Shown here: in pieces, positions 5,630 to 25,240 of the stretch
Numbering within the stretch: position 1 is the first letter of the stretch
Layout: every line of letters begins with the position of its first letter
Virus record (IMG/VR): IMGVR_UViG_3300049856_000142
Location: 1-33,428 of that record
From: a virus
Length of the DNA stretch: 33,428 nt
Reading direction: 5' to 3' (one strand)
Notes under the pieces: generated by a model
What the model was told of the DNA's origin: nothing
Databases searched by the model: none
Seen by the model: only the letters and a program-made list of their open reading frames with translations
Program-made: the position numbers and the translations under genes

Positions 5630-6067
5630 TTATGAATATGCCTTTCGGCTTAGTTCAAACGCTTCATCCCAACCATCTGCTTGCCATACGATTCGACCTT
5701 GTGCATCTCTATGAGAATATAGACAAAAGAACACCGTATTGTCCTCAAGTGCGAATATTTCATGTAGTGATTCTGCTTTTACGAGAAACCAGCATTCATT
5801 GATACCATCAGTCTTTATAAGAGAACTATTAGGAGCATGAAAGTCTTTTTCTACCTCTGTTCCATCAGGATTTTTCATTTTTACATGAACAGACCCCGAC
5901 ATGACAAGTGTGACATGGTCAAAATTATGTGCATGATTTCCACAGACTTGCCCTTTGTTTAAATAGTTTGGTCGACAAAATATACCGCTATCACGACCAC
6001 AATAAAACTCTGGATAACGTACGTTAACGTCTGCAGATCCTTGTTCTAATTTAGGTAAGTTATTCAT
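5630..6067 (-). CDS. Cupin-fold protein in tail region
   Basis: A 145-aa single-domain cupin. GNHAHNFDHVTLVMSGSV (about residues 43-60) fits cupin motif 1 with several His and an acidic residue as possible metal ligands, and SLHEIFALEDNTVFFCLYSH fits motif 2 with H108. Cupins bind metals and small molecules, often sugars. Its ATG overlaps the upstream stop (TAATG). Its place among fibre and receptor-type genes, in a phage that also carries glycan genes, hints at carbohydrate or virion work, but nothing proves a substrate. Confidence 0.7.
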   Translation of the reverse strand: MNNLPKLEQGSADVNVRYPEFYCGRDSGIFCRPNYLNKGQVCGNHAHNFDHVTLVMSGSVHVKMKNPDGTEVEKDFHAPNSSLIKTDGINECWFLVKAESLHEIFALEDNTVFFCLYSHRDAQGRIVWQADGWDEAFELSRKAYS

Positions 6068-7097: not shown

Positions 7098-9281
7098 TTA
7101 AAAACCATTCGTCTGAGCAACAAAGTCCCACTTAGAATCTGCACTGTTATAACGAAAGTTCAAATACATTGTCTTGGATGCTGTTGTTGTAGTTGGAAAT
7201 GCTAAATCAGTCGATGCTCGATAAATAGCGTTAAACGCAAGAGTTTGAGCACCACCATTATCTTTGATTCGAATAGTTAAGACGTTGTTGTTTGCTGGAG
7301 TTCCTGATGGTGCAGCGAAAGTTGCGCCCGCAGCTAAGGCGGTGACTGAAAAGAAATTTCTCAAACTACCTCCTGTTGGTGTAGGAGTTGCTGATGAAGC
7401 TGTAGTGGTCATTTCTTCCACCACGTTTGTGCTGGCAATCAGAGTCTTGTTAGTAAGAGTTTGAGTAGAAGAAACATCGGCGATGGTTACACCTTCCACT
7501 GCAATCACTCCTGCAGATACTCTTGAGAGAGTTGTATCTGTAGCGTTACCCAGTTCTATTGTTGCAGCTTGGAGAGAAGTACTTATTACGTATGCACCCG
7601 CTCCAAAACTTCCTGGAAGAATAGCTGCAGCAGGAACACCAGTAACATTAGTCATTACTCCAGAAGCAGGAGTACCCAAAGCAGGGGCAACAAATGTCTT
7701 GTTACTCATTGTCTGAGCTTTTGTCTTGAATGTAAATTCATCGACCACACTCGCAAAGTCTGGAATAGTAAGTGTTGTAGCGCCGACTGTTTGTGAAGTC
7801 AAAGCTACATTTACCAATTGACCATTTGTTAAAAGTAGAGGTGTAGCTGCAGAAGTTGCCAGTGATGTGGCAGAAGCTACTCCTAATACAGGTGTAACCA
7901 GAGTTGGTGAGGTATTCATTACAAATGTAGTACCTGTACCTGTTTGAGAAGCAATAGCAGTAGCATTACCCGTTGAAGTAATTGGACCAGTTAAGTTTGC
8001 ATTAGTTGCGTCGTTTCCGTTTAACTTCTGGATAGCTTGCAATATTGAGTCTGTAGCAGCCACTGTTCCAGCTCCTGAGACATACCCTGTGAGCACTTTT
8101 GCAATAACAGGAGCGTTTGTGAGAGTGGTAGCATTTCCAACAGAAGTCACATCCCCCGTGAGGTTTGCATTTGTAACCACGGTTGTTGCAAAGCTACCTG
8201 TTCCAGATCCTGTAACACCTCCTGTGAGGGTTATAGTTTGATCACCCGTGTTTGTTCCTGATGATGATCCTGTATGTGTCCCAGAAATAGTTGCAGTGGC
8301 GGAAGCAGTAAGAGTTGCACCATCAGCAATCGTCAAAGTGGAAGCGGTTGCTGGTGCAGTTACTGTCACCTTGTTTATTGTTGTTGCTGTAGCAACCCCG
8401 AGAACTGGAGTTGCGAGTGTTGGTGCTGTAGCGAGTACTACAGAGCCAGTACCAGTAGTTGCTGTTGCCGATAGTACCCCAGAGGTCAATGTTGCAATAC
8501 CTGTTCCAGTAGCACGTTTCCCTGTTTTACCACCTGTACCACTAAATAGAACAATTTCACTATCAACTGATGTTGCGGTGTTTGAAGAAAAATCTCCACC
8601 TCCGCCTGCACCAGTAGTGACAGTTACTGTACCATCACCGTTATCAGTTACAGATCCATTAGAGAACTTAATTGCTGTCGGACTCGTTACTGTTGGAGAA
8701 CCATCGATTTCTGTTACTCTAAAAGCTACGCCGCTTGCAGAACTTCTTTGACCCTGAGTAGCAATCTGATTGAGTAATTGTGTACGATTTTGAAGTGTAG
8801 CAATGGTCTCATCAAGTTCTTCAATAGCAGACATCCCCAATTTTTCTCCATTTGGTAGTGACTCTAATTTATCACGAATTTTATCTGCATTTTCTGCGAC
8901 GGCAACCTCTACTATTTCATTCGTTATATTGTGTGTAACAATTGGCTGTTCTTTTACAGTTGTAATTTTTTCAACTATCTTTTCTACTACAGGTACAGGA
9001 ATAGACTGAGCAATTTCTTTTTTATCTTGTTCTGTGAGTACATAGTCTTCCCCTTGAGCACCTTTCTCAATGGCGTTTATTCTACTGAGAGCGTCTTCTG
9101 TAGTTTTTTTAAACTCATCAATACCTGTTTCGATAACATCTTGGTACTCTTTTATTTTTTCCTCTTTCTGGTCTATAAAATCCTCAAATTCTAGTATTTT
9201 TTCAAGTACAGCCATATCACCACTCTCGACAAGTTTTGCTGCACTGAGTAATTTTCTTTTTTGAGCTTCTGTTAATTCCAT
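7098..9281 (-). CDS. Long tail fibre protein
   Basis: A 727-aa protein. Residues 1 to about 165 are helical and acidic (ILEFEDFIDQKEEKIKEYQ, QDKKEIAQSIP), suggesting a coiled-coil attachment part. The remainder is a long Thr/Ala/Gly/Ser/Val shaft with imperfect repeats such as TPVLGVATATTINKV / TPVLGVASATSLATS / APALGTPASGVMTNV and the TLTNKTLIAS / TMSNKTFVAP pair typical of phage fibres. The C-terminus (NNVLTIRIKDNGGAQTLAF, MYLNFRYNSADSKWDF) resembles a fibre tip domain. It is the first gene after the leader and promoter at 9298-9369 and probably mediates host binding. Confidence 0.8.
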   Translation of the reverse strand: MELTEAQKRKLLSAAKLVESGDMAVLEKILEFEDFIDQKEEKIKEYQDVIETGIDEFKKTTEDALSRINAIEKGAQGEDYVLTEQDKKEIAQSIPVPVVEKIVEKITTVKEQPIVTHNITNEIVEVAVAENADKIRDKLESLPNGEKLGMSAIEELDETIATLQNRTQLLNQIATQGQRSSASGVAFRVTEIDGSPTVTSPTAIKFSNGSVTDNGDGTVTVTTGAGGGGDFSSNTATSVDSEIVLFSGTGGKTGKRATGTGIATLTSGVLSATATTGTGSVVLATAPTLATPVLGVATATTINKVTVTAPATASTLTIADGATLTASATATISGTHTGSSSGTNTGDQTITLTGGVTGSGTGSFATTVVTNANLTGDVTSVGNATTLTNAPVIAKVLTGYVSGAGTVAATDSILQAIQKLNGNDATNANLTGPITSTGNATAIASQTGTGTTFVMNTSPTLVTPVLGVASATSLATSAATPLLLTNGQLVNVALTSQTVGATTLTIPDFASVVDEFTFKTKAQTMSNKTFVAPALGTPASGVMTNVTGVPAAAILPGSFGAGAYVISTSLQAATIELGNATDTTLSRVSAGVIAVEGVTIADVSSTQTLTNKTLIASTNVVEEMTTTASSATPTPTGGSLRNFFSVTALAAGATFAAPSGTPANNNVLTIRIKDNGGAQTLAFNAIYRASTDLAFPTTTTASKTMYLNFRYNSADSKWDFVAQTNGF

Positions 9282-9423: not shown

Positions 9424-10248
9424 ATGAAAAAATATATCATTCTGACATTATTACTTTTACCAGTTTTTGCGTATGCTAGTATAGACCAAAACCTAAAATA
9501 TGGCTCTAAAGGTACAGAAGTGACTGAATTACAAGAGTTTTTAATGGATAAAGGTTTTTTATCACAAGTAACAGGTAACTTCTTTTCACTTACAAAGAAG
9601 GCTGTTATTGCGTACCAAGCATCACAAAGTCTCCCCGCAACAGGCTTTGTAGGGGCTATGACACGTGATAAAATAAACGCTGAGCTTGCTAGTGTGTCTG
9701 ATGAAGAAGAAATAAATACTCCAGTTGTAAGTACTCCATCAAATGACACTATAGTATTAAAAAACCAATTGATTGCTCTTACGACTCAAATGAGTGAAAT
9801 GGTAGCACAACAGAAAACTCAGACCGCTCAAAATATACAAGCAACAAAAGCAATCGAACAAGTAGTGACTAATACAACGCCAGTACCTGCATATAGTAAT
9901 CCACCAGCACCTGTATTTGCACCTGTAGCAACTACGATTGATGTAATCAATAATAAATACGAGGGTACTTACTCTGAATATCCTTACGGTTGGTATAACT
10001 TTTTAGTAAGTGTTAAAGACCAAAATGGTAACTATATGAAAAATGTGATGGTAAATTTTGAAAACCCAGTCGATAATCTTTATAAATCTGCTCCAGGAGA
10101 TTTCACCAGAAGTACAACAGGTAGCTATTCTACTGAGAATATTCCTGTAGCAGGGGGATTTGAATACATACCATCTACATACGGAACAAAGATAATTAAC
10201 ATCTCTTCAGGAAATATTACAAAGAGTCTTACTTTAGAAGTAAAATGA
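9424..10248 (+). CDS. Secreted peptidoglycan-binding protein (moron)
   Basis: A 274-aa protein with a clear signal peptide (MKKYIILTLLLLPVFAYA, cleavage near residue 18), then a peptidoglycan-binding PG_binding_1-type domain at about 24-87 (GSKGTEVTELQEFL, TGNFFSLTKKAVIAYQ, PATGFVGAMTRDKIN). A linker/coiled part with Gln-rich segments and a Pro-rich hinge follows, then a C-terminal Ig-like beta domain (residues 170-274). The exact style of the PG domain is one I associate with surface proteins of Patescibacteria. It is the only sizeable plus-strand gene, inserted between two minus-strand late operons with its own promoter: a lysogenic-conversion or host-surface moron, likely host derived. Its effect on the host is unknown. 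Confidence 0.8.
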   Translation: MKKYIILTLLLLPVFAYASIDQNLKYGSKGTEVTELQEFLMDKGFLSQVTGNFFSLTKKAVIAYQASQSLPATGFVGAMTRDKINAELASVSDEEEINTPVVSTPSNDTIVLKNQLIALTTQMSEMVAQQKTQTAQNIQATKAIEQVVTNTTPVPAYSNPPAPVFAPVATTIDVINNKYEGTYSEYPYGWYNFLVSVKDQNGNYMKNVMVNFENPVDNLYKSAPGDFTRSTTGSYSTENIPVAGGFEYIPSTYGTKIINISSGNITKSLTLEVK

Positions 10249-16153: not shown

Positions 16154-16564
16154 TTATACTATTTGAAGTAGCCCGTTAGTCCCATCAAAGTCGAGAGTTA
16201 ATGTGTCGGTATCGCTTAATGTGAGAGCAGATCCATAGTCATACCATGCAATAAGTGGGCCTCCAGAAGCTGTTGAGTTATAAATAACAATATATCGAAA
16301 TGGCCCTGTAGAACCACCTGTTGAAGTGAGTACTAAGTCTGCAATTACTAATTTATATGTCCCAGAAGTTTGAACAGATGATGAAATCGTAAGATTTCGT
16401 GTTGATAAGTTTGAATAACTTACTTCTGTAATGTTTGCTAATATGGTGTTAGTGTTTACTGGAAGTGTGTTTGTCAAAGCTACTTTCAGTTGATCTGAAC
16501 CTAAATTATGTACCTTTTCGGCTACATCTTCGACGAAACATTGGAATTTTGTATAACTGGCCAT
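16154..16564 (-). CDS. Structural beta protein next to connector
   Basis: A 136-aa protein beginning MASYTKFQCFVEDVAEKVHNLG with a run of beta strands (DQLKVALTNTLP, NLTISSSVQTSGTYKLVIADLVL, FRYIVIYNSTASGGPLIAWYDYG, DTLTLDFDGTNGLLQIV). I recognise the pattern from small phage proteins encoded near connector genes with the FxxxxE..HNL....LKVALTN start. Probably virion associated. It overlaps the adaptor gene by one base (TAATG). Confidence 0.6.
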   Translation of the reverse strand: MASYTKFQCFVEDVAEKVHNLGSDQLKVALTNTLPVNTNTILANITEVSYSNLSTRNLTISSSVQTSGTYKLVIADLVLTSTGGSTGPFRYIVIYNSTASGGPLIAWYDYGSALTLSDTDTLTLDFDGTNGLLQIV

Positions 16565-17259
16565 TATCTTGATGAAATTATCACAGGTCTAATACTTAAA
16601 TTTTCATCTTTAGACCTGAGCTGGTAATCTGATTTTAATGCTTCTTCTTTACGATTGATTTCCTCTAAAAACTTGTTAGCTGTGTTCATTCCATTTGCAA
16701 AAGCGTACTCATATGAAACCCATATAGGAATGAGATCGTGATAGAGAGAGTTAAAACCAGGTTGTTTTGTTCCTGTAGTTACTTCACCAGAAGTATAGAG
16801 TGCTGGAGCTCGTTGATAACGAATTTTTAAAGAAGCTGCCTGTGAATAGTTTGGTTTTGGGTAAAGAAACAGTGACATTCCTAGTTTGTCATAATACTGA
16901 GGTATGCCCGCATCTTTCAAAAAGTCAGTTGTAGAAAGGTTATATTTGATATCATTTTGATCAATTGGAATAAGTGGTATCCAATTTCCTGTACTATCTT
17001 TCAACTCGATCCCTGTGATTTCAAGATGTGTTGATGCGAGAGAATAATCTTGCTGGTTTGCAACAAGAGCTGTCGTGGCAATAGGTAAATCTGTGTTGTT
17101 GGTATCATCCCACTGCCATCGTCCATCGACTGAAATAATGAGAGACGCTACACGCTCATACGCATTGTTAATGAGGATAAGCATGTCTGCTGCAGTAAAT
17201 GAAGAACTATTGGTCTTAGTGAGAAAATATGTTTTTGATACAATATCAGATATAGTCAT
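16564..17259 (-). CDS. Head-tail adaptor / connector protein
   Basis: A 231-aa protein with an N-terminal helical part (FTAADMLILINNAYERVASLI), central beta segments with WQWDDTNN, a DYSLASTHLEITGIELKDS motif, FLYPKPNYSQAASLKIRYQRAP, and a C-terminal helical part with many charged residues. This order is typical of short phage adaptor proteins that attach below the portal. It is the first gene after the leader and promoter at 17278-17346, so it opens the tail operon. Confidence is moderate to good from motif style and position. Confidence 0.7.
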   Translation of the reverse strand: MTISDIVSKTYFLTKTNSSSFTAADMLILINNAYERVASLIISVDGRWQWDDTNNTDLPIATTALVANQQDYSLASTHLEITGIELKDSTGNWIPLIPIDQNDIKYNLSTTDFLKDAGIPQYYDKLGMSLFLYPKPNYSQAASLKIRYQRAPALYTSGEVTTGTKQPGFNSLYHDLIPIWVSYEYAFANGMNTANKFLEEINRKEEALKSDYQLRSKDENLSIRPVIISSR

Positions 17260-17277
17260 TTTTTTATATTAAAAATA

Positions 17278-17307
17278 GGCAACCAATACGGCTGCCCAGT
17301 GCTTCTG
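17278..17307 (-). ncRNA. Structured 5' leader, copy 2 (connector operon)
   Basis: On the minus strand: micro-hairpin CAG-AAGCA-CTG (17307-17297), then GGCAGCC / GGTTGCC, a 7-bp stem with one G-U pair and a 5-nt loop (17296-17278), then TATTTTTAATATAAAAAAATG into the connector start. The micro-hairpin is base-identical to copy 3, while the second stem differs entirely, which argues for conserved structure. Confidence 0.65.
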
Positions 17308-17317
17308 TGACTTTTTT

Positions 17318-17346
17318 ATTATACTACACCTTTATAAGTCAAGCAA
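17318..17346 (-). promoter_or_regulatory. Promoter of the connector/tail operon
   Basis: On the minus strand, TTGCTT (17346-17341), 17-bp spacer, TATAAT (17323-17318), preceded by GTGTAG. The GTGTAGTATAATA block is identical to that at 28207-28220. It overlaps the 3' end of the GT2 gene, so the glycan cassette runs into this promoter. Confidence 0.65.
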
Positions 17347-18006
17347 ATTTTTGTTTTTATTATAAATATAATCTTGTAATACTTGAGCGTGTGGGTTTGC
17401 TGTCGCTTCACTCATATTATTTTCATGTCTTCTCCATAATAAAGCAACATAAGTACCTACAACAGACTCATAACCTTTTCCAATCATACGTAGCCAAGCC
17501 TCACGGTCTTCCCACCCGTATCTCATTATTTCACTTTCATCAAATCCTCCTATATCAATCCACGCTTGTTTTGGGAATAAACTATTAGAATAAATACAAT
17601 TTGTTTGAAGCAAGATAGGTATAGTGGCTTTACGGGGATAAGCTGTATAGTTTTGTGAGCCGAAAGCCATCAAAGCACACGTAGCTATACTCTTTTCATC
17701 TTTCAGTAGTGCAAGGTGTTGTTTAATTGCGTCTGGTCGTAAAATATCATCTGCATCAAAACTCATAATATAATTTCCTGTGGCTTCTCGTATACCTGTA
17801 TTGCGTGCTCCTGCTAGTCCTTTATTATTCTGCCAAATGTATTTTACGGGGTATTTCTTTACTATATCTGCTGTATTATCTGTGCTTTCATCATCTACTA
17901 CAATGATCTCACATGGGACAGTTTGAGCTAAAGCACTCTCAAGAGCCTCTGTAATGTACTTTCCGTAATTAAATGCTGGTATTATTATAGAAACAGTTTT
18001 TTCCAT
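17332..18006 (-). CDS. Family 2 glycosyltransferase
   Basis: A 224-aa GT-A enzyme. The N-terminal nucleotide-binding pattern VSIIIPAFNYGKYITEALES starts at residue 5, VVDDESTDNTADIV lies at 36-49, GARNTGIREATGNYI at 66-80, and the metal-binding DADD at 84-87. A WxDRxAWLRM-type acceptor-side segment (GWEDREAWLRM) follows. It would transfer a sugar from a nucleotide donor to an acceptor; the substrate cannot be read. It is the last gene of the glycan cassette and overlaps the GT17 gene by 22 bp. The length is close to a bare catalytic domain. Confidence 0.85.
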   Translation of the reverse strand: MEKTVSIIIPAFNYGKYITEALESALAQTVPCEIIVVDDESTDNTADIVKKYPVKYIWQNNKGLAGARNTGIREATGNYIMSFDADDILRPDAIKQHLALLKDEKSIATCALMAFGSQNYTAYPRKATIPILLQTNCIYSNSLFPKQAWIDIGGFDESEIMRYGWEDREAWLRMIGKGYESVVGTYVALLWRRHENNMSEATANPHAQVLQDYIYNKNKNLLDL

Positions 18007-18734
18007 TTTTCTTTATTATTTTTTAAATACACTGGTAAATCACTTTCATCAACTCGTTTGTTAGTCTCTCTTCTTTTCCACACTTCATCTGAGAAAGTAT
18101 CATATGTAGGGTTAATCCAAGATTTTATTTTTTCTTCTCTCCCTCCTATCGTACAGAAATGCCACCCTCCATTTTCTATTACTTGATACTCAGTCATACT
18201 ATCAGTCCTGAGATGATTTATGCATGCATCTTTTATATTCTTATACGCAGTAAATACTGTCCCAGTCCAACCTAGCCAGTCTTCATCTGTTCTCTGATTA
18301 AGGTAATATATGTACGGTTTTTGTCGTGGTTTATACACGATATCATCCTCGTACACCCTTTGTGGGACATTCCATATCTCATCAACATCTGAAATAAAAA
18401 CAAGATCATTATCATCACAAAACTTTAATGCTTCTTTTGCATTTTCCTTTTGTATAAACTCTCTTATCCAATAATGTTCCCCATCTCCAGTATTAGGACT
18501 TAATATTGCCTGTTTTCTTAATTCAGGTGTATCCTCGGCGATGTGATATATAATTTTATCATTCCATTGTGCAAATCTTTGTTTGTTTTCTAGGTAATAC
18601 AAAGGTTTTGGTACGCCACTAAAAGTCTCTCTTGCTTCAATAAGCACAAACTTATCCACATGTTTATCTAAGATATTTAGTCTTATTTCCAAAATATCCA
18701 GTTCGTTATTAAAATAAAATAAGTCTATGACCAT
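17985..18734 (-). CDS. Family 17 glycosyltransferase
   Basis: I choose the ATG at 18734 (MVIDLFYFNNELDILEIRL), because it gives the standard N-terminus and only a 10-bp overlap with the upstream gene; a longer frame to 18794 adds a poor prefix. The product is 249 aa. IDLFYFNNELDILEIRLNI, KFVLIEARETFSG.PK, LVFISDVDEIW with its Asp cluster, and GGWHFCTIGG are landmarks of GT17, whose eukaryotic members add bisecting beta-1,4-GlcNAc to N-glycans. Phage and bacterial members usually work on surface glycans. Donor and acceptor are unknown. Confidence 0.8.
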   Translation of the reverse strand: MVIDLFYFNNELDILEIRLNILDKHVDKFVLIEARETFSGVPKPLYYLENKQRFAQWNDKIIYHIAEDTPELRKQAILSPNTGDGEHYWIREFIQKENAKEALKFCDDNDLVFISDVDEIWNVPQRVYEDDIVYKPRQKPYIYYLNQRTDEDWLGWTGTVFTAYKNIKDACINHLRTDSMTEYQVIENGGWHFCTIGGREEKIKSWINPTYDTFSDEVWKRRETNKRVDESDLPVYLKNNKEKWKKLFL

Positions 18735-19288
18735 ATATGATAAAGTGACCGCTCTATTAAATATGCTTCTCCTGGTGTTCCATGCCAGTCGCAATAATCT
18801 CTTAATTTAGTATAAAACTCTTTACTATGTTTAAGTATGTTACTTTTTGGAACAATGTAGCAACCCCCTGGTGCAAACTTGTTATAACTTCTCTCATAAA
18901 AACCTAGCATCTTTTTAAGTTCTTCTGTTCTCGCGTATGTTTTGCATGGATGTTCAAGTAGATACCAGTAGTCGTTAGTTTCGCAATATACTCCATCTTC
19001 GTACCAACATATCGGGTCGTATACATGATGCGACTGCGTGAGTAGTGGTGTAAATGTTTTATTATTCACTACTTTATCAAACTCTTCTTTAGTGATGTGC
19101 CGTTCTAACATATTGGTTTTACCGAATAAAATAACGTCTGGTAGATTGTCGTAATTATCCACTATGAAAGACGTGTAATCATGTATATTTGCTCCTACAT
19201 TATTATCCTTTTTATCATAAAATATAACATTATCAGTGTATTCTTTAATCCAATCTCTATTATTATGATAGTCATTCATTACCCACAT
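18725..19288 (-). CDS. DUF3431-like protein in glycan cassette
   Basis: A 187-aa protein. VIFYDKKDNNVGANIHDYTS and VDNYDNLPDVILFGK resemble the N-terminal landmarks of the DUF3431 family (a Y-D-K start, an invariant-like Gly, then DNYDxLPD). The end (GGCYIVPKSNILKHSKEFY, YLIERSLYHIW) also fits its C-terminal shape. Members often occur near glycosyltransferases and some are thought to have glycosyltransferase-like activity, which is not established. It overlaps neighbours by 10 bp on each side. Confidence 0.6.
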   Translation of the reverse strand: MWVMNDYHNNRDWIKEYTDNVIFYDKKDNNVGANIHDYTSFIVDNYDNLPDVILFGKTNMLERHITKEEFDKVVNNKTFTPLLTQSHHVYDPICWYEDGVYCETNDYWYLLEHPCKTYARTEELKKMLGFYERSYNKFAPGGCYIVPKSNILKHSKEFYTKLRDYCDWHGTPGEAYLIERSLYHIWS

Positions 19289-20076
19289 ATAGTTCCTTGA
19301 TTATCTAACCAATCCCACCCTTTTACATAATTTTGTTTGAGTAACCACTCCCCCGTATTGTGTCGGCCAAAGCCCCACGGAGCTATCACTCGTTTTACTT
19401 CATCATTAAGATATGCAGGCAAGATTGCAAAACTACTATTTGAAAGTATGAGATATCGTGCATACCGTATTGACCTCCAGTTTAACCCTATATCTGCAAT
19501 AATAGGAAAGTGAGGAAAAAACTTTCGAGCTTCTCCAACATCATCAGTGTGTACTTCAAATTTCATGTTCGGCTTCATGGACAGCATTTCTGCTATCGCC
19601 CTATCCCAATAACTTTGAGGAAGAAAGAAAGCAGGTACATATTTATATTCTCCACCTCTAAAGTTAATAATACATGTATCTCTATCAAGCATTAGAGGAG
19701 GTTTGACTTCGAGCCATTCTTGCACCTGGTCACGTCTATGCGAGATATAATTTATTCCCTGTAAAAGACCGTGTATAAGTGTGTTATCCTCAATTTTTTT
19801 AAAATTAGGGTCATAGTCACCATTGTTGATAAACTCCTCTCTATAGTAGTGTTTTAAGCCTTCAGGGAGGGCTGTAGGGTGCTGTCCTTCAACTGGTATT
19901 TCTCCACCAATAACTGGTAAACCCATATATAATTTCATAAACGTTGCACCTTTGAAATTCTCAGGATACATGACACCAAATTTATAATTTTTGTCCAAAG
20001 CTAAACATCGCACTGCTACATAATTAGCTAATTGATTACCGAGCCCCATTCCTTTGTAGAGTGGTGTTGCGATCAT
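19279..20076 (-). CDS. Divergent GT11-like fucosyltransferase-fold protein
   Basis: A 265-aa protein with the ordered landmarks of GT11 alpha-1,2-fucosyltransferases in diverged form: GLGNQLANYVAVRCLA at 11-26, INFRGGEYKYV in place of HxRRGDY (N138-F-R-G-G-E-Y144), FEVHTDDVGEARKFF, and ARYLILSNSSFAILPAYL. The usual donor-binding HxRRGD is altered to NFRGGE, so either donor specificity differs or activity is lost. It is close to normal length for the family, unlike the shorter GT11 at 21842-22384. ATGA overlap with the methyltransferase gene. Confidence 0.65.
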   Translation of the reverse strand: MIATPLYKGMGLGNQLANYVAVRCLALDKNYKFGVMYPENFKGATFMKLYMGLPVIGGEIPVEGQHPTALPEGLKHYYREEFINNGDYDPNFKKIEDNTLIHGLLQGINYISHRRDQVQEWLEVKPPLMLDRDTCIINFRGGEYKYVPAFFLPQSYWDRAIAEMLSMKPNMKFEVHTDDVGEARKFFPHFPIIADIGLNWRSIRYARYLILSNSSFAILPAYLNDEVKRVIAPWGFGRHNTGEWLLKQNYVKGWDWLDNQGTICG

Positions 20077-20588
20077 ACTCGTGTATATACGGTTACACCG
20101 TTATTATTTGGATAATGTTTATATACTTTCCACACACCATTCTCTAACCATTCATCAATAGCAGGCAACATTTCAGGACACGACACGGTATCATGTAATG
20201 CAATGTATTTACGAACTTTGTCAGAGTGAAGTTCTAATTCTTTTTTAAGTTGTTCATATGTGTGGTCAGTGTCTATAAACAATAAATCTGTTGGTTCTAT
20301 TTCAATATCAAGTGTACTTCTCTCTATAAAAGAAAACTTAATGCCATACTCTTGTGCAAGACTTAGGACTTTATCAAAGTTTTTTCCTCCCTCTTGTGGG
20401 ACGTATGTAGACGGGTGGACTATATCAATACACACTATTTCTTTTGGTTTACCCTCTAAAAAGGCAAACGTAGAGACACAATATCGTACACCCATTTCTG
20501 TTACATGTTCACATTCACTCGCCAAGTCTCGGAGAGTTGGTAAGTGTTCATTTATATCACTTGTTGTATTACAAAGTTGATTAAACAT
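20073..20588 (-). CDS. Class I SAM-dependent methyltransferase-like protein
   Basis: A 171-aa protein. VTEMGVRYCVSTFAF (29-43) replaces the motif I strand-loop, IVCIDI (51-56) is the second strand with an acidic end, LLFIDTDHTYEQLKKEL (102-118) and YIALHDT follow as in small Methyltransf_24-type enzymes, some of which act on sugars or small molecules. The Gly-rich loop is reduced (EMGVRY), so binding of SAM is not certain. It overlaps GT2 on one side and the GT11-like gene on the other, which points to sugar modification in the same glycan pathway. Confidence 0.65.
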   Translation of the reverse strand: MFNQLCNTTSDINEHLPTLRDLASECEHVTEMGVRYCVSTFAFLEGKPKEIVCIDIVHPSTYVPQEGGKNFDKVLSLAQEYGIKFSFIERSTLDIEIEPTDLLFIDTDHTYEQLKKELELHSDKVRKYIALHDTVSCPEMLPAIDEWLENGVWKVYKHYPNNNGVTVYTRV

Positions 20589-21144
20589 ATCTTTGTCTCA
20601 TTAAGAACACCTCGTTTTCTTTTTCAGTGTTCGCTATTAAATTTGTTGCTTGGTGTTCACCCTCACCAATTGTCACATTATCTCCTAGTAATACAGTCGG
20701 ATCACCATATTTGGTATACATTCGTTTATAGAAATCACAATCAAATAACCACACAAGATTTTCATCAAAATATATGTCTAATCCTTTTTTTACAGTAAGT
20801 ACAGAGGGACTACCAAGTTTATTGTTTCCTAAATGAATATCTCCTGTGTACATTGGTCTCATATTATTTGAACATCCTGTAATCATCCATTCACCTTTGA
20901 ATTTAGTAACAATGTCTCTTAGAGAGTCTTTGTGAGTGAAATAATCATCTTGGTGAAGTATTTTAATCAAGTTTCCTTGAGCCTGTTTCATTCCTAGGTT
21001 CGTATTGTGAGCAGAATTACCCTCATGAGTCATAACAATTTCGTAATCTTTATATGTTTGAGACTTGATACTCTCAAGACAACGGTTCAAGAAGAACTCG
21101 CCGTTTACCATATTGTCATACACTGGAATTACGATTGATATCAT
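20581..21144 (-). CDS. Family 2-like glycosyltransferase
   Basis: I choose ATG at 21144 because it overlaps the upstream stop as ATGA and begins directly with MISIVIPVYDN, the GT2 first strand. The product is 187 aa. CLESIKSQTYKDYEIVMTHEG and NTNLGMKQAQGNLIKILHQDDYF follow, with QDD serving as the metal-binding DxD equivalent. The C-terminal part has WLFDCDFYKRM and GDNVTIGEGEHQAT as in many short phage/bacterial GT2 enzymes. Substrate unknown. Confidence 0.8.
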   Translation of the reverse strand: MISIVIPVYDNMVNGEFFLNRCLESIKSQTYKDYEIVMTHEGNSAHNTNLGMKQAQGNLIKILHQDDYFTHKDSLRDIVTKFKGEWMITGCSNNMRPMYTGDIHLGNNKLGSPSVLTVKKGLDIYFDENLVWLFDCDFYKRMYTKYGDPTVLLGDNVTIGEGEHQATNLIANTEKENEVFLMRQRYV

Positions 21145-21845
21145 GACTTTGATTTTGACCATTGTGTTGCGTTAAATAATGACTCAAACGTACCTGCGTC
21201 AGACCAGAAACCTTGATACTTTACAATCCCTGCATCATACTCATATTCTACTTCCCCATCTTGTTTTAAACACCAGTTATTAACATCTGTTATTTCAAGT
21301 TCGCCTCGTGCTGACGGTTCGAGTGTCTTGATGAAATTAAAGACTTCTTTATTGTAGAAGTATAATCCAGTGACAGCCATGTCAGATTTAGGAATTAGTG
21401 GCTTTTCCTCAATTGCACCGTCATAATAGACCCCGAAACGCTTTGGATCTTTGACTTTTTTTAAGACAAAACCATATCCCCTAGTAGGTGGAGTCACCGA
21501 ATACTCAAATATATTATCGCCAAGTATTACTGCAAACTGCTCATCAACAAAGTCTTCTGCGAGAAGTAACGCCTGAGCAATGCCTCCAGCTTCATCTTGG
21601 ACTTTGTATGTAAAGTTACACCCGAACTTTGAGCCAGATCCAAGTAAATCAACAAACTGTCCAAGATACTCTCCACCAGTGACGATAAGAATATCCTTTA
21701 TACCCATATCAAGTAATGTCTGTAGCGGGTACATAATCATTGGCTTGTTCCACACAGGTAGTAAGTGTTTGTTTGTCACATTTGTTAGAGGTTTCAGTCG
21801 TGTACCATTACCTCCTGCGAGTATTACTCCTTTTAGTTTATTCAT
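21141..21845 (-). CDS. Sugar-1-phosphate nucleotidyltransferase (RmlA-like)
   Basis: A 234-aa protein with the nucleotidyltransferase signature LAGGNGTRLKPLT at 9-21, LPVWNKPMIMYPLQTLLDMG at 29-48, DEAGGIAQALLLAEDFV near 84-100 and GDNIF at 109-113. This is the pattern of glucose-1-phosphate thymidylyltransferase and close relatives, which make dTDP- or other NDP-sugars from sugar-1-phosphate. The C-terminal GLYFYNKEVF and RGELEITDVNNWCL are also family landmarks. Slightly shorter than the usual about 290 aa, lacking the last helices. It supplies an activated sugar for the cassette; no RmlB, C or D is present in the window. Confidence 0.85.
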   Translation of the reverse strand: MNKLKGVILAGGNGTRLKPLTNVTNKHLLPVWNKPMIMYPLQTLLDMGIKDILIVTGGEYLGQFVDLLGSGSKFGCNFTYKVQDEAGGIAQALLLAEDFVDEQFAVILGDNIFEYSVTPPTRGYGFVLKKVKDPKRFGVYYDGAIEEKPLIPKSDMAVTGLYFYNKEVFNFIKTLEPSARGELEITDVNNWCLKQDGEVEYEYDAGIVKYQGFWSDAGTFESLFNATQWSKSKS

Positions 21846-22384
21846 ATTTGTATAAAGTTATCAGGGCATACAGTACGCTCAATACCGTCTGCATACCAAG
21901 CCTTAGGAGCTGTTACTTTACCTTTACAAAGTAACCCTGCCCAAAGTGAATATGAGCTATTAGCACATATTACAGCTTTACATCCTGCCATGAGGTTAAA
22001 GTCTGTTATCTCATCATTACCCTCAGAAAAATCACAATCTTTGAATATCTCTTGCTGTTTACACCATTCAATATCATCTGAAAACACTAAAAACTTTTCT
22101 TTAGGAAATAGAGCCATAGCATTTTCATAGTATGTAGTTTCCATTAGGTCTACATAAAATGGATTATTCGCATAGTCACCCCTACGAACATGAATTGCTA
22201 CTTGATTGATAGGTTCGATACCTTGAGAGAAGAGCACTTTTAACTCTTCAATACTTTCTGCGAAGTAATATGGGTCTTGCAGATAAAAATCAGGTATACT
22301 ACCGAGTTTTACTTGGTTGTATAAATAGGCAAATTGAAACATTTGGTTTCCTAGCCTTCCTGATAATTTCCACATTGGTATCAT
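21842..22384 (-). CDS. GT11 alpha-1,2-fucosyltransferase-type enzyme, short
   Basis: A 180-aa protein with the main GT11 motifs: GRLGNQMFQFAYLY (9-22), VAIHVRRGDY (62-71, the GDP-fucose-binding motif), FLVFSDDIEWCKQ and FNLMAGCKAVICANSSYSLWAGLL. These are conserved closely. The family is usually about 280-300 aa; here the segment between the first motif and HVRRGDY is only about 45 residues, so the N-terminal domain is shortened. Expected to transfer fucose from GDP-fucose, though no GDP-fucose synthesis gene is present, so the donor must come from the host cell. ATGA overlap with the nucleotidyltransferase gene. Confidence 0.8.
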   Translation of the reverse strand: MIPMWKLSGRLGNQMFQFAYLYNQVKLGSIPDFYLQDPYYFAESIEELKVLFSQGIEPINQVAIHVRRGDYANNPFYVDLMETTYYENAMALFPKEKFLVFSDDIEWCKQQEIFKDCDFSEGNDEITDFNLMAGCKAVICANSSYSLWAGLLCKGKVTAPKAWYADGIERTVCPDNFIQI

Positions 22385-22845
22385 TATTTTTTGAGGTTAA
22401 ACTGTCGAATTTGTTTTATTTTCTCTTCGAGCTGGTCCGTTACTTCGATAAATGTTTTACCATCTCTCTCAATAAACTGTCCGCCCATTTCAAACTCACT
22501 CAATTGATCTTTTATCACATTACGAGCAATAGGATATAGTTTCTCTTTAATAGCATCTGCTTTTTGATTGATAAGATCAGCTTGTTCCTGCTGTACTTGA
22601 AATGGTTTAAGTTCTTCTGTTAATCTAGCTTTAAGTTCTGCACGTTTTTCCTCGATCGGTTTAAGTTCTGCATAAATAACTTCAAGTGCAGGTGTAAGTT
22701 TCTCCATTTCATTAAGAAATGGTTCAGCTTCTACACCACACTTTTTAACTTCCTCTAGTAGACTGATTACTTTCTCATCTGTGATTTCAATGAGTCTTGT
22801 TCCTGTATAATTCTTCTCGCTTAAAATTGCTTTGTCGATAATCAT
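22384..22845 (-). CDS. Coiled-coil protein embedded in glycan cassette
   Basis: A 153-aa, mostly helical protein with charged heptads (ELKPIEEKRAELKARLTEEL, QQEQADLINQKADAIKEKL) and a C-terminal strand turn (GGQFIERDGKTFIEVTD). It has none of the features of a glycosyltransferase. It resembles small helical phage proteins often found in head or assembly regions, so the cassette seems to have been built around an original structural-region gene. Overlaps the next gene by one base (TAATG). Confidence 0.5.
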   Translation of the reverse strand: MIIDKAILSEKNYTGTRLIEITDEKVISLLEEVKKCGVEAEPFLNEMEKLTPALEVIYAELKPIEEKRAELKARLTEELKPFQVQQEQADLINQKADAIKEKLYPIARNVIKDQLSEFEMGGQFIERDGKTFIEVTDQLEEKIKQIRQFNLKK

Positions 22846-22849
22846 TGTA

Positions 22850-23902
22850 TTATTTGGTTAATTTTATAATCTCATCCACCCATGTTTGGGCATAGGTCTT
22901 AATGTTGTAATTCTCTAAAACATACTCTCTCGCTTTTGATGCCATATCCTTATACAACTTATGATTGTTCTTGATATGAGTGATATATTCCAACCATTTA
23001 TCATTATCATTCACAATCGTCATATACTTCTCATCGACCCCTTGATACGGACTCAAGCCATCAGAGAACCCTTGAGCAAGAACAGGGATACAGTGTAGAG
23101 ACATATCCAAAAACTTTAGATTCGATTTACACTTGTTAAAGTAGTGGTCCTTACGGGGGATGATAGCGAGATCAAGAGCGAGTCTTGCAACAGTACTGTA
23201 GTACTCTGTAATGGGCACTACAGAATGCCATTCAACATTGTTGAGTGAGTTCCAGAAATCAAAATCCTCTTGCATCGAGGGCATTATAGAGCCATCAGCA
23301 TATTTCACGCCCATAATTACGAGAGTTATGTCACCTCTTTCGTCCAGTTTCTTTATCTGGTCTTTAATGTGAAAATAGTCATCGTTAGAGGTTACTGATC
23401 CAATGAATCCAACACGAAACTTGCCTGTTGTATTAGGTTTACAAGGATATTCATCTAAAGGATCAATACAATTCTTAAGTACAACAACATTAGGATTAAG
23501 TTGAGTATATTCCTTAGCAAGGATTTCTGTTGATACAGTCACACCATCTGCTATCGTTACAAACTCATTAAGGTTTTTGTTTAATTCTTGTGCTATCTTT
23601 ACCTGTTTTTCACTTCCAAGACGATTAAGTGGTATACCAGAGTATGAGTCGTCATTGTCAAATATAATCTTTTTTCCCTTGAGTTTAAGCAACTTTGCTA
23701 ACTCTAAAGCATTTTTCCCAGTTGGACGCTGAAAACATATAATATCTACTTTAAGCGCTTTATCTAACATTTCTTGGCTACTCGCTTTCATATCTTGACG
23801 TATAAAAGACGAGATGACCATTTGATTTGAGTATATACCAGGTAAATACCCTCTGAAATAGTAACAAAAATTATAATCTCCTTGTAAAAACAGAATCTTC
23901 AT
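22850..23902 (-). CDS. GT-B glycosyltransferase (GT4-like)
   Basis: A 350-aa GT-B protein. The N-terminal domain begins MKILFLQGDYN and includes KIIFDNDDSYSG and VTVSTEILAKEY. The C-terminal domain has KFRVGFIGSVTSNDDY (start of the second Rossmann domain), LVIMGV, VEWHSVVPITEYYSTVARLALDLAIIP and a KSNLKFLDMSLHCIPVLAQ segment where GT4 enzymes keep a donor-binding loop. It is close to the normal length. It starts the glycan cassette just after the small 23899-24222 gene, with an ATGA overlap. Donor and acceptor unknown. Confidence 0.8.
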   Translation of the reverse strand: MKILFLQGDYNFCYYFRGYLPGIYSNQMVISSFIRQDMKASSQEMLDKALKVDIICFQRPTGKNALELAKLLKLKGKKIIFDNDDSYSGIPLNRLGSEKQVKIAQELNKNLNEFVTIADGVTVSTEILAKEYTQLNPNVVVLKNCIDPLDEYPCKPNTTGKFRVGFIGSVTSNDDYFHIKDQIKKLDERGDITLVIMGVKYADGSIMPSMQEDFDFWNSLNNVEWHSVVPITEYYSTVARLALDLAIIPRKDHYFNKCKSNLKFLDMSLHCIPVLAQGFSDGLSPYQGVDEKYMTIVNDNDKWLEYITHIKNNHKLYKDMASKAREYVLENYNIKTYAQTWVDEIIKLTK

Positions 23903-24222
23903 TTCTTTTGTAATAATTCTAATATCTTATTCACATTACCTTCCATACTATCTATCCTTTTTTCCAACTCCTGAGTCTTTGTAGGTGCTATGGTACGTTC
24001 TTCCACCACTGCTTGAGGAGCTGATGCTTGTTGTGTTATTGCATGAGCAGAAAACTTTTTGTCATCTTCTACTCTTTTAATCTCTGCAAATCGTTCTTGA
24101 TTGATAATATTTCCTTTTGAAATAATGATCCCGCCATTTGATTCATCTGTCATATCAACAATTTGACCCGCCAAATTGCGGACTGTTCTTTTTCTAAATA
24201 GGTGACCAACGTTTACTGTCAT
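23899..24222 (-). CDS. Small post-capsid protein
   Basis: I prefer ATG at 24222 (MTVNVGHLFRKRTVRNLAG), which lies downstream of the capsid terminator; a longer frame to 24309 would read through the terminator hairpin. The product is 107 aa: a short N-terminal beta part (GGIIISKGNIINQERFAE), a Gln/Ala linker, and a C-terminal coiled coil (KTQELEKRIDSMEGNVNKILELLQ). Probably head or assembly associated by position; no family recognised. Confidence 0.55.
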   Translation of the reverse strand: MTVNVGHLFRKRTVRNLAGQIVDMTDESNGGIIISKGNIINQERFAEIKRVEDDKKFSAHAITQQASAPQAVVEERTIAPTKTQELEKRIDSMEGNVNKILELLQKK

Positions 24223-24242: not shown

Positions 24243-24267
24243 CAAAAAACCACACGTCAAGTGTGGT
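24243..24267 (-). terminator. Terminator after major capsid gene
   Basis: On the minus strand ACCACAC / GTGTGGT form a perfect 7-bp stem with loop TTGAC, followed by TTTTTGTTTG. It lies 26 bp beyond the coat stop. Partial readthrough would set coat expression above that of the glycan cassette that follows. Confidence 0.8.
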
Positions 24268-24292
24268 CTCCTGTGTATAACTACCAGTCTGA

Positions 24293-25240
24293 TTAAAGAC
24301 CAACAGCAACTGAGTGAGATCGAATTTTAACCGCTGAGTCTACTCGGTTTTGGATAGTTCCATAACAAAGATCAACTGTAACCAATTCCCCAAGATATTC
24401 TTGGATGTATGATTGCTGAATTCGAACACCCTCTGTACCAATGTAGCCCATACCTGTTTTAACAGGCATTGACATACGAGCCCAGTGGATTGAATCCTTG
24501 TGGGCAAGCATATTAAGTCGTGCTGAGTTTTCACCTACTGCACCTGCTCCCAATGGGACAGCTGGAGATACGATAACTGGAATACTGTACAAAGATCGCA
24601 TAGGAGCCTTTGAACGTGGCAATTCAGTCTGTGTATTCTGCCATAGAGTAAGTTTATCTACTGAACCAATCTGTCGATAGAAAGTGTTTGGATGGAAAAT
24701 CCAAGCAGTATCACCACCGTAAACTTCAACGCCAGTTGTTTCAAGAATTGCAATCGCAGCGAGCAAAGATGAGTCTGCTACGTTTGATGAAGCAAGACCT
24801 ATAATCTGACCTGCAACTGTAAAGTTTGTAAACTGTGCTGCAATAGCGTCATCCAAGTCCTGAGCAACTTCCCAAGCACATGCCTTAGCAAACTTATCCT
24901 GCAAGTAATAACTCTTTTTAAGCTGAGCCATTTCTCGATCTTCAATAAGGAATGAAGACTCTTTCCAAGTTGACACTGTAAGTGTAACTTTGGTCTGAAT
25001 AGGGTTGTTAAGTGTTACCTGTGAGTTGTTTGCCTTAACTGCTGTCGCCATAGCGATGATGTTTGGAGTATACACATCAGAACCACCATCGGCTAGTTCA
25101 TCACTTCGATCAATAAAGAAATCTGCGAGAGTTAGTTTATATCTGAAGTAATCGTTAATCTTCTGTCCCCATAGCAATGGAATGTCTGCTGTAAGTGATC
25201 CACCTGATCCAGCACCCATCCCGTTTGTTCCTAAAGCCAT
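24293..25240 (-). CDS. Major capsid protein
   Basis: A 315-aa protein following the scaffold gene, with a long helix region and beta-rich body of HK97-fold type: LLWGQKINDYFRYKL (spine-like segment), FTVAGQIIGLASSNVADSSLL, TTGVEVYGGDTAWIFHPNTF, SIPVIVSPAVPLGAGAVGENSA and HWARMSMPVKTGMGYIGTEG, the last being the kind of conserved C-terminal stretch seen in podovirus coats. Gene order portal, scaffold, coat supports the call. Transcription ends largely at the terminator at 24243-24267. Confidence 0.8.
   Translation of the reverse strand: MALGTNGMGAGSGGSLTADIPLLWGQKINDYFRYKLTLADFFIDRSDELADGGSDVYTPNIIAMATAVKANNSQVTLNNPIQTKVTLTVSTWKESSFLIEDREMAQLKKSYYLQDKFAKACAWEVAQDLDDAIAAQFTNFTVAGQIIGLASSNVADSSLLAAIAILETTGVEVYGGDTAWIFHPNTFYRQIGSVDKLTLWQNTQTELPRSKAPMRSLYSIPVIVSPAVPLGAGAVGENSARLNMLAHKDSIHWARMSMPVKTGMGYIGTEGVRIQQSYIQEYLGELVTVDLCYGTIQNRVDSAVKIRSHSVAVGL

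Follow-up and report, generated by a model that had tools for sequence, protein, structure and literature searches.

Two sets of described phages are among the systems closest to the one analysed here. According to a passage of a published account, the mycobacteriophages Che8, Corndog and Myrna use glycosyltransferases (GTs) of their own to glycosylate capsid and tail proteins, which shields them from antibodies (PMC12363180), and a passage on the moraphages describes four core glycosyltransferase groups (PMC12619734). The present analysis concerns a cassette of sugar-enzyme genes in the IMG/VR virus record IMGVR_UViG_3300049856_000142, whose 33,428 bases (ends not resolved) were taken whole as the window. 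On the minus strand of the window the order is TerL, portal, scaffold, major capsid protein (MCP), a small open reading frame (ORF), the sugar block, a connector-like gene and the tail genes. Comparison with relatives showed that one enzyme of the block, a GT4-type glycosyltransferase, belongs to the core of the head module in a large uncultured group of tailed phages, and that the other eight enzymes of the window are an accessory expansion. We consider it rather probable that the block is a virion-glycosylation module joined to the head operon, in which GT4 would start a glycan and the accessory enzymes would elaborate it.

Constant and variable genes behind the capsid gene

Scans of IMG/VR were based on the capsid and blind to the glycosyltransferase, and contigs with at least 1 kb past MCP were kept (n = 73; all distinct, yet some near-copies of one another). 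GT4 was found behind MCP in 73/73 of these contigs, at a median distance of 384 nucleotides (nt). Both GT4 and a non-enzyme gene, CC153, were present in all 89 complete segments from MCP to connector, a number in which a few contigs are counted twice. Since no further gene of at least 120 amino acids (aa) followed GT4 in 52 of these 89 segments, the head block in its plain form reads MCP-(small ORF)-GT4-CC153-connector.

The preliminary description of this DNA had treated nine enzyme genes as one unit and had suggested a comparison with relatives that lack them. That comparison resolved the unit into one core enzyme, GT4, and eight accessory ones: the expansion is absent from the sister loci L025, L042 and L103, the nearest unexpanded relatives (MCP 63-64% identical), and GT4 is still there. 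Every member of the window's clade is expanded, and so are several other branches, which carry different sugar genes; mapping the expanded state onto the capsid tree takes 8 changes, of which well-supported branches force 6. Within the window's clade the gene order is mostly kept and other genes vary, the slot of the RmlA-like gene being filled in relatives by RmlB-like dehydratases, fucose-synthase-like epimerases or aminotransferases. The glycosyltransferase is as constant as the capsid gene, and behind GT4 stands a fast-changing glycan kit. Elsewhere in the head region, large ORFs of 545 to 704 aa are inserted among the portal-scaffold genes of L037 (4082-6196), L023 and L132.

Pairwise identities of GT4 correlated with those of MCP (r 0.79, rank 0.72) more highly than did those of any other gene tested, namely CC153 (0.74), scaffold (0.65), portal (0.60), connector (0.26) and TerL (0.11). 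In some relatives, L003 and L009, MCP is more than 80% identical yet TerL only about 20%, so terminase and tail parts have been exchanged around a constant MCP-GT4-CC153 set that was kept together. Compared with the window, L003, L009 and L012 have TerL swapped for distant versions (about 20% identity) and MCP still 71-84% identical.

From the placement of the cassette between head and tail genes, action late in infection on particles or on the host surface had originally been proposed. Since GT4 is always linked to the capsid gene and co-diverges best with it, the virion half of that proposal gains ground, and the host-surface half is less favoured. The same data bear on the idea that tail or receptor-binding fibre proteins are the targets instead of the capsid, their glycosylation tuning adsorption. 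The cassette does lie between head and tail genes, and several tail-region proteins, e.g. that encoded at 7098-9281, are Thr/Ser-rich as judged by eye without comparison to controls; GT4, however, follows MCP in evolution and the connector less so (0.39), and we give this idea little credence.

Several points weigh against virion glycosylation as the function of the block. Physical closeness may explain part of the MCP-GT4 correlation, although the scaffold gene lies nearer to MCP than GT4 does, yet correlates less. In addition, the locus set was partly recruited through GT4 similarity, a bias of which the 73/73 count is free. Finally, the acceptor is a putative one, in a virus that is known from metagenomes only.

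Genes, signals and enzymes of the block

The features of the block and its borders, from the capsid gene onwards, are the following.

24293..25240, minus strand: MCP; phrog_267 at E 2.5e-11; the group profile matches 9jwb (3e-24) and 8e16 (1.2e-8), solved phage capsid proteins
24245..24271, minus strand: terminator-like hairpin and T-run directly past the MCP stop; read from the sequence, then tested across relatives
23899..24222, minus strand: small post-capsid ORF of 107 aa; homologues in relatives
22850..23902, minus strand: GT4-type GT-B glycosyltransferase, core head-module gene; phrog_7162 at 1e-35, structure model, all 73 MCP-selected loci
22384..22845, minus strand: CC153, core non-enzyme gene; 91-residue helix, beta hairpin and C-terminal helix
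21842..22384, minus strand: short GT11 fucosyltransferase-like protein (GT11a); PF01531 at 6e-24, motifs GRLGNQ, HVRRGD, SDD and NSSYSLW
21141..21845, minus strand: short RmlA-like glucose-1-phosphate thymidylyltransferase; PF00483 at 9e-47, TIGR01207 at 8e-63 (below cut-off)
20581..21162, minus strand: GT2-like glycosyltransferase (GT2a); PF00535 at 1.4e-8, N-terminal part only
20073..20588, minus strand: class I methyltransferase; PF13578 at 2.9e-5, slightly below cut-off
19279..20076, minus strand: GT11-like protein (GT11b); phrog_2644 at 5e-7
18725..19288, minus strand: DUF3431 protein; PF11913 at 2.8e-6
17985..18734, minus strand: GT17-like glycosyltransferase; PF04724 at 1.9e-23, SDVDE motif
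17332..18006, minus strand: GT2 glycosyltransferase (GT2b); PF00535 at 1.2e-36, DADD motif
17317..17327, minus strand: promoter-like GTAGTATAATA ahead of the connector; GTATAAT enriched in relatives
17276..17298, minus strand: hairpin and T-run in the interval between cassette and connector; similar elements in L034, L025, L103 and L086
16564..17259, minus strand: connector-like head-tail gene bounding the cassette; position conserved in all complete loci, no database match

Searches of Pfam and PHROG, together with the GT4 model, bore out the nine sugar-enzyme genes that the preliminary description had placed at 17332-23902 (minus), and its claim of a gene chain also held, as nearly all neighbours overlap or abut (intergenic gaps of -22 to +4 nt). 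Its gene list was incomplete, since a tenth gene, CC153, lies at 22384-22845 between GT4 and GT11a, and its start of the GT17 gene, 18794, is replaced by 18734 (ATG, 249 aa). The call of the post-coat gene was corrected to 23899-24222 because a terminator-like hairpin sits upstream of the ATG of this gene. The label 'connector' for 16564-17259 is positional.

Of 90 loci, 18 carry a hairpin with a T-run no more than 110 nt from the MCP stop, whereas shuffled sequences would yield 0.7; it is present in most of the window's clade, and such elements are rare after portal, scaffold and GT4. A stock terminator scan of the whole block returned sites no commoner than chance. Upstream of the connector, GTATAAT occurred in 15/64 loci (2.8 expected). 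The post-capsid hairpin suggests that the cassette may be expressed by read-through, and on a simple reading of these signals the head operon would be extended into the cassette by read-through, the tail block having its own start. A second exact copy of GTAGTATAATA, followed by a hairpin and T-run, is located at 28218-28162 (minus) upstream of the portal gene, in the same layout as before the connector.

GT4 had no match in Pfam. Its AlphaFold2 model was confident (predicted local distance difference test, pLDDT, 93.9) and aligned with HepE over 313 residues (VIA-align Z 25.8, root-mean-square deviation 3.4); Z values were 24-26 for HepE, BshA, PimA and PglA, which are sugar-nucleotide GT4 enzymes, and TarM was also matched. 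TarM and BshA were found by the GT4 profile as well. Both the fold of the model (GT-B) and its sugar-nucleotide site agree with those of GT4 enzymes. In a check for the canonical E-x7-E motif, E266 was kept in 90% or more of 50 rows, and the position eight residues earlier is C258, with A in one relative. Comparison of L011 with L039 revealed purifying selection both on GT4 (dN 0.042, dS 0.856) and on GT11a (dN 0.121, dS 0.846). For CC153, searches of Pfam, PHROG and folds gave no useful match; sequence matches in PDB were set aside as generic coiled coils.

Two accessory enzymes are shortened and keep their signatures. GT11a, of 180 aa, retains its catalytic motifs, including G-x-LGNQ at the N-terminus and the donor motif HxRRGD. 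The RmlA-like protein, of 234 aa, retains GGxGTRLxPxT, LGDN and EKP; it covers positions 1-235 of the 286 of TIGR01207 and scores 212 bits, the cut-off being 361, so that the full-length equivalog score is not reached. In bacterial RmlA the C-terminal end that it lacks probably harbours part of the feedback-inhibition site. The GxLGNQ pattern is missing from GT11b in a motif check, and this protein, which has no Pfam match, is assigned through a single weak PHROG match, phrog_2644. The methyltransferase, with 25.3 bits to PF13578 (cut-off 26.3), probably acts in sugar O-methylation.

The commonest families in 55 representative unnamed inserts were methyltransferases, epimerases/dehydratases and aminotransferases, a mix like that of bacterial O-antigen loci. 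Such a mix would suit a cassette that remodels the host surface late, for superinfection exclusion or to stop progeny adhering to debris, or one made of auxiliary metabolic genes for host surface glycan, and in phages of groundwater Patescibacteriota sugar-nucleotide genes, among them rmlB, rmlD and gmd, have been read as host lipopolysaccharide genes (PMC12911398). However, when the 204 distinct ORFs that lie between MCP and connector were scanned, no 19-mer reached the hydrophobicity level set for membrane segments; no cassette protein has a membrane-level hydrophobic segment that would indicate a Gtr-type membrane flippase or membrane glucosyltransferase (GtrA, GtrC), and no flippase, polymerase or ligase is among the families listed for inserts. 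A role at the host surface, which also leaves unexplained why one glycosyltransferase never parts from the capsid gene, seems to us unlikely. A candidate assignment of the accessory enzymes of 335-355 aa as GDP-mannose dehydratase was rejected, as NCBIfam puts those tested nearer to dTDP-glucose 4,6-dehydratase; the simple account of GDP-fucose made for GT11 was therefore dropped.

Modification of DNA had been a further option of the preliminary description, and phage glycosyltransferases are able to hypermodify DNA (Pyle et al. 2024, as cited in a passage of PMC12619734). Under this explanation the phage would escape restriction through glycosylation of its hydroxymethylated DNA by these enzymes. 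A search of 20 long records, which may be incomplete, gave no thymidylate-synthase-family hydroxymethylase while its control was positive, and RmlA, GT17 and the methyltransferase fit DNA glycosylation poorly; we hold it to be very improbable. A Tet/JBP search, the control of which gave no signal, carries no weight on this question.

Proposed function and host clues

If the block glycosylates the virion, GT4 would transfer the first sugar onto a head protein, the candidates being the capsid protein, CC153 and the small post-capsid protein. The accessory enzymes of the window's clade would then lengthen, fucosylate and probably methylate the glycan started by GT4, with RmlA raising the supply of a nucleotide-sugar donor and the remainder coming from the host; the sugars and their order are proposed on this basis. 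With the terminator past the capsid gene read through, expression would be late and low, at a level suited to enzymes. The benefit to the phage would be shielding or changed adsorption. A stronger version, which we put forward tentatively and with some doubt, is that protein glycosylation is obligatory for head assembly or maturation throughout a large phage group, the glycosyltransferase coevolving with the capsid protein and the swappable cassette giving each phage its own serotype-like type of capsid glycan.

With regard to the host, a capsid scan of bacterial genomes returned only two contigs of metagenome-assembled genomes, from Bacteroidales (L096) and Tenericutes (L097), both too short for host naming. 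Shine-Dalgarno-like motifs precede 2 of the 44 gene starts of the window, compared with 10% at random positions, and 1 to 9 per 83-142 starts in relatives (MCP, portal, scaffold, GT4, CC153 and connector genes). Given their near-absence, the host probably initiates translation without such motifs, which is a clue to its identity. A lone plus-strand gene at 9424-10248 encodes a protein whose start resembles a signal peptide and which has a PG_binding_1 domain (PF01471, 2e-11); this product may resemble Patescibacteria proteins, a possible host lead. In the tail region, 5630-6067 (minus) encodes a protein of 145 aa that is cupin-like by eye and has no Pfam match.

Comparison with known systems

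No similarity was found between the cassette DNA and named phages, and the capsid gave no match by tblastn against 50,697 phage records. The system shares with Che8, Corndog and Myrna phage-encoded glycosyltransferases and, here putatively, virion proteins as targets. The group's capsid profile finds Che8 gp6 (37.8 bits, E 1.2e-8). In Che8, however, the gene directly behind the capsid gene is that of the head-to-tail adaptor, no glycosyltransferase is annotated in the head block, and the enzyme named in the passage in PMC12363180, gp110, lies outside it. In the present group, by contrast, the capsid gene of every relative has a glycosyltransferase behind it, and the block can take up as many as about ten accessory enzymes.

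A closer parallel in layout is MW202801, an uncultured podovirus from Manatee Spring, in which the capsid gene and a head-completion gene flank a sugar cassette that includes a GT4 homologue (profile E 5e-39). Its capsid, portal and connector fall outside the group's profiles, and its cassette differs in carrying radical-SAM-like, PhyH and NodB-like genes and in lacking CC153. MW202801 repeats, with an unrelated head, the link of a GT4-type enzyme with the slot behind the capsid gene. Moraphages resemble the group in being an uncultured lineage whose core genes include glycosyltransferases; they differ in being large aquatic phages, and the passage on them describes no linkage to the capsid gene (PMC12619734). 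Bacterial O-antigen and dTDP-sugar loci are similarly modular, with RmlA or RmlB-like proteins, epimerases, aminotransferases, glycosyltransferases and methyltransferases, whereas no membrane export or polymerisation genes were seen here, each phage holds only fragments of the donor pathway, and the genes are placed in the head operon.

Glycan genes of environmental phages are often classed as auxiliary metabolic genes for the host surface, and the comparison made here points to the particle. If this holds, capsid glycosylation would belong to the core traits of a large uncultured group, which would offer a directly testable model of variation at the outer surface, and the GT4 gene would be useful as a group marker. 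Virion glycosylation itself was already known; what is new is an invariable pair of capsid and glycosyltransferase genes across a large group, joined by a plug-in cassette.

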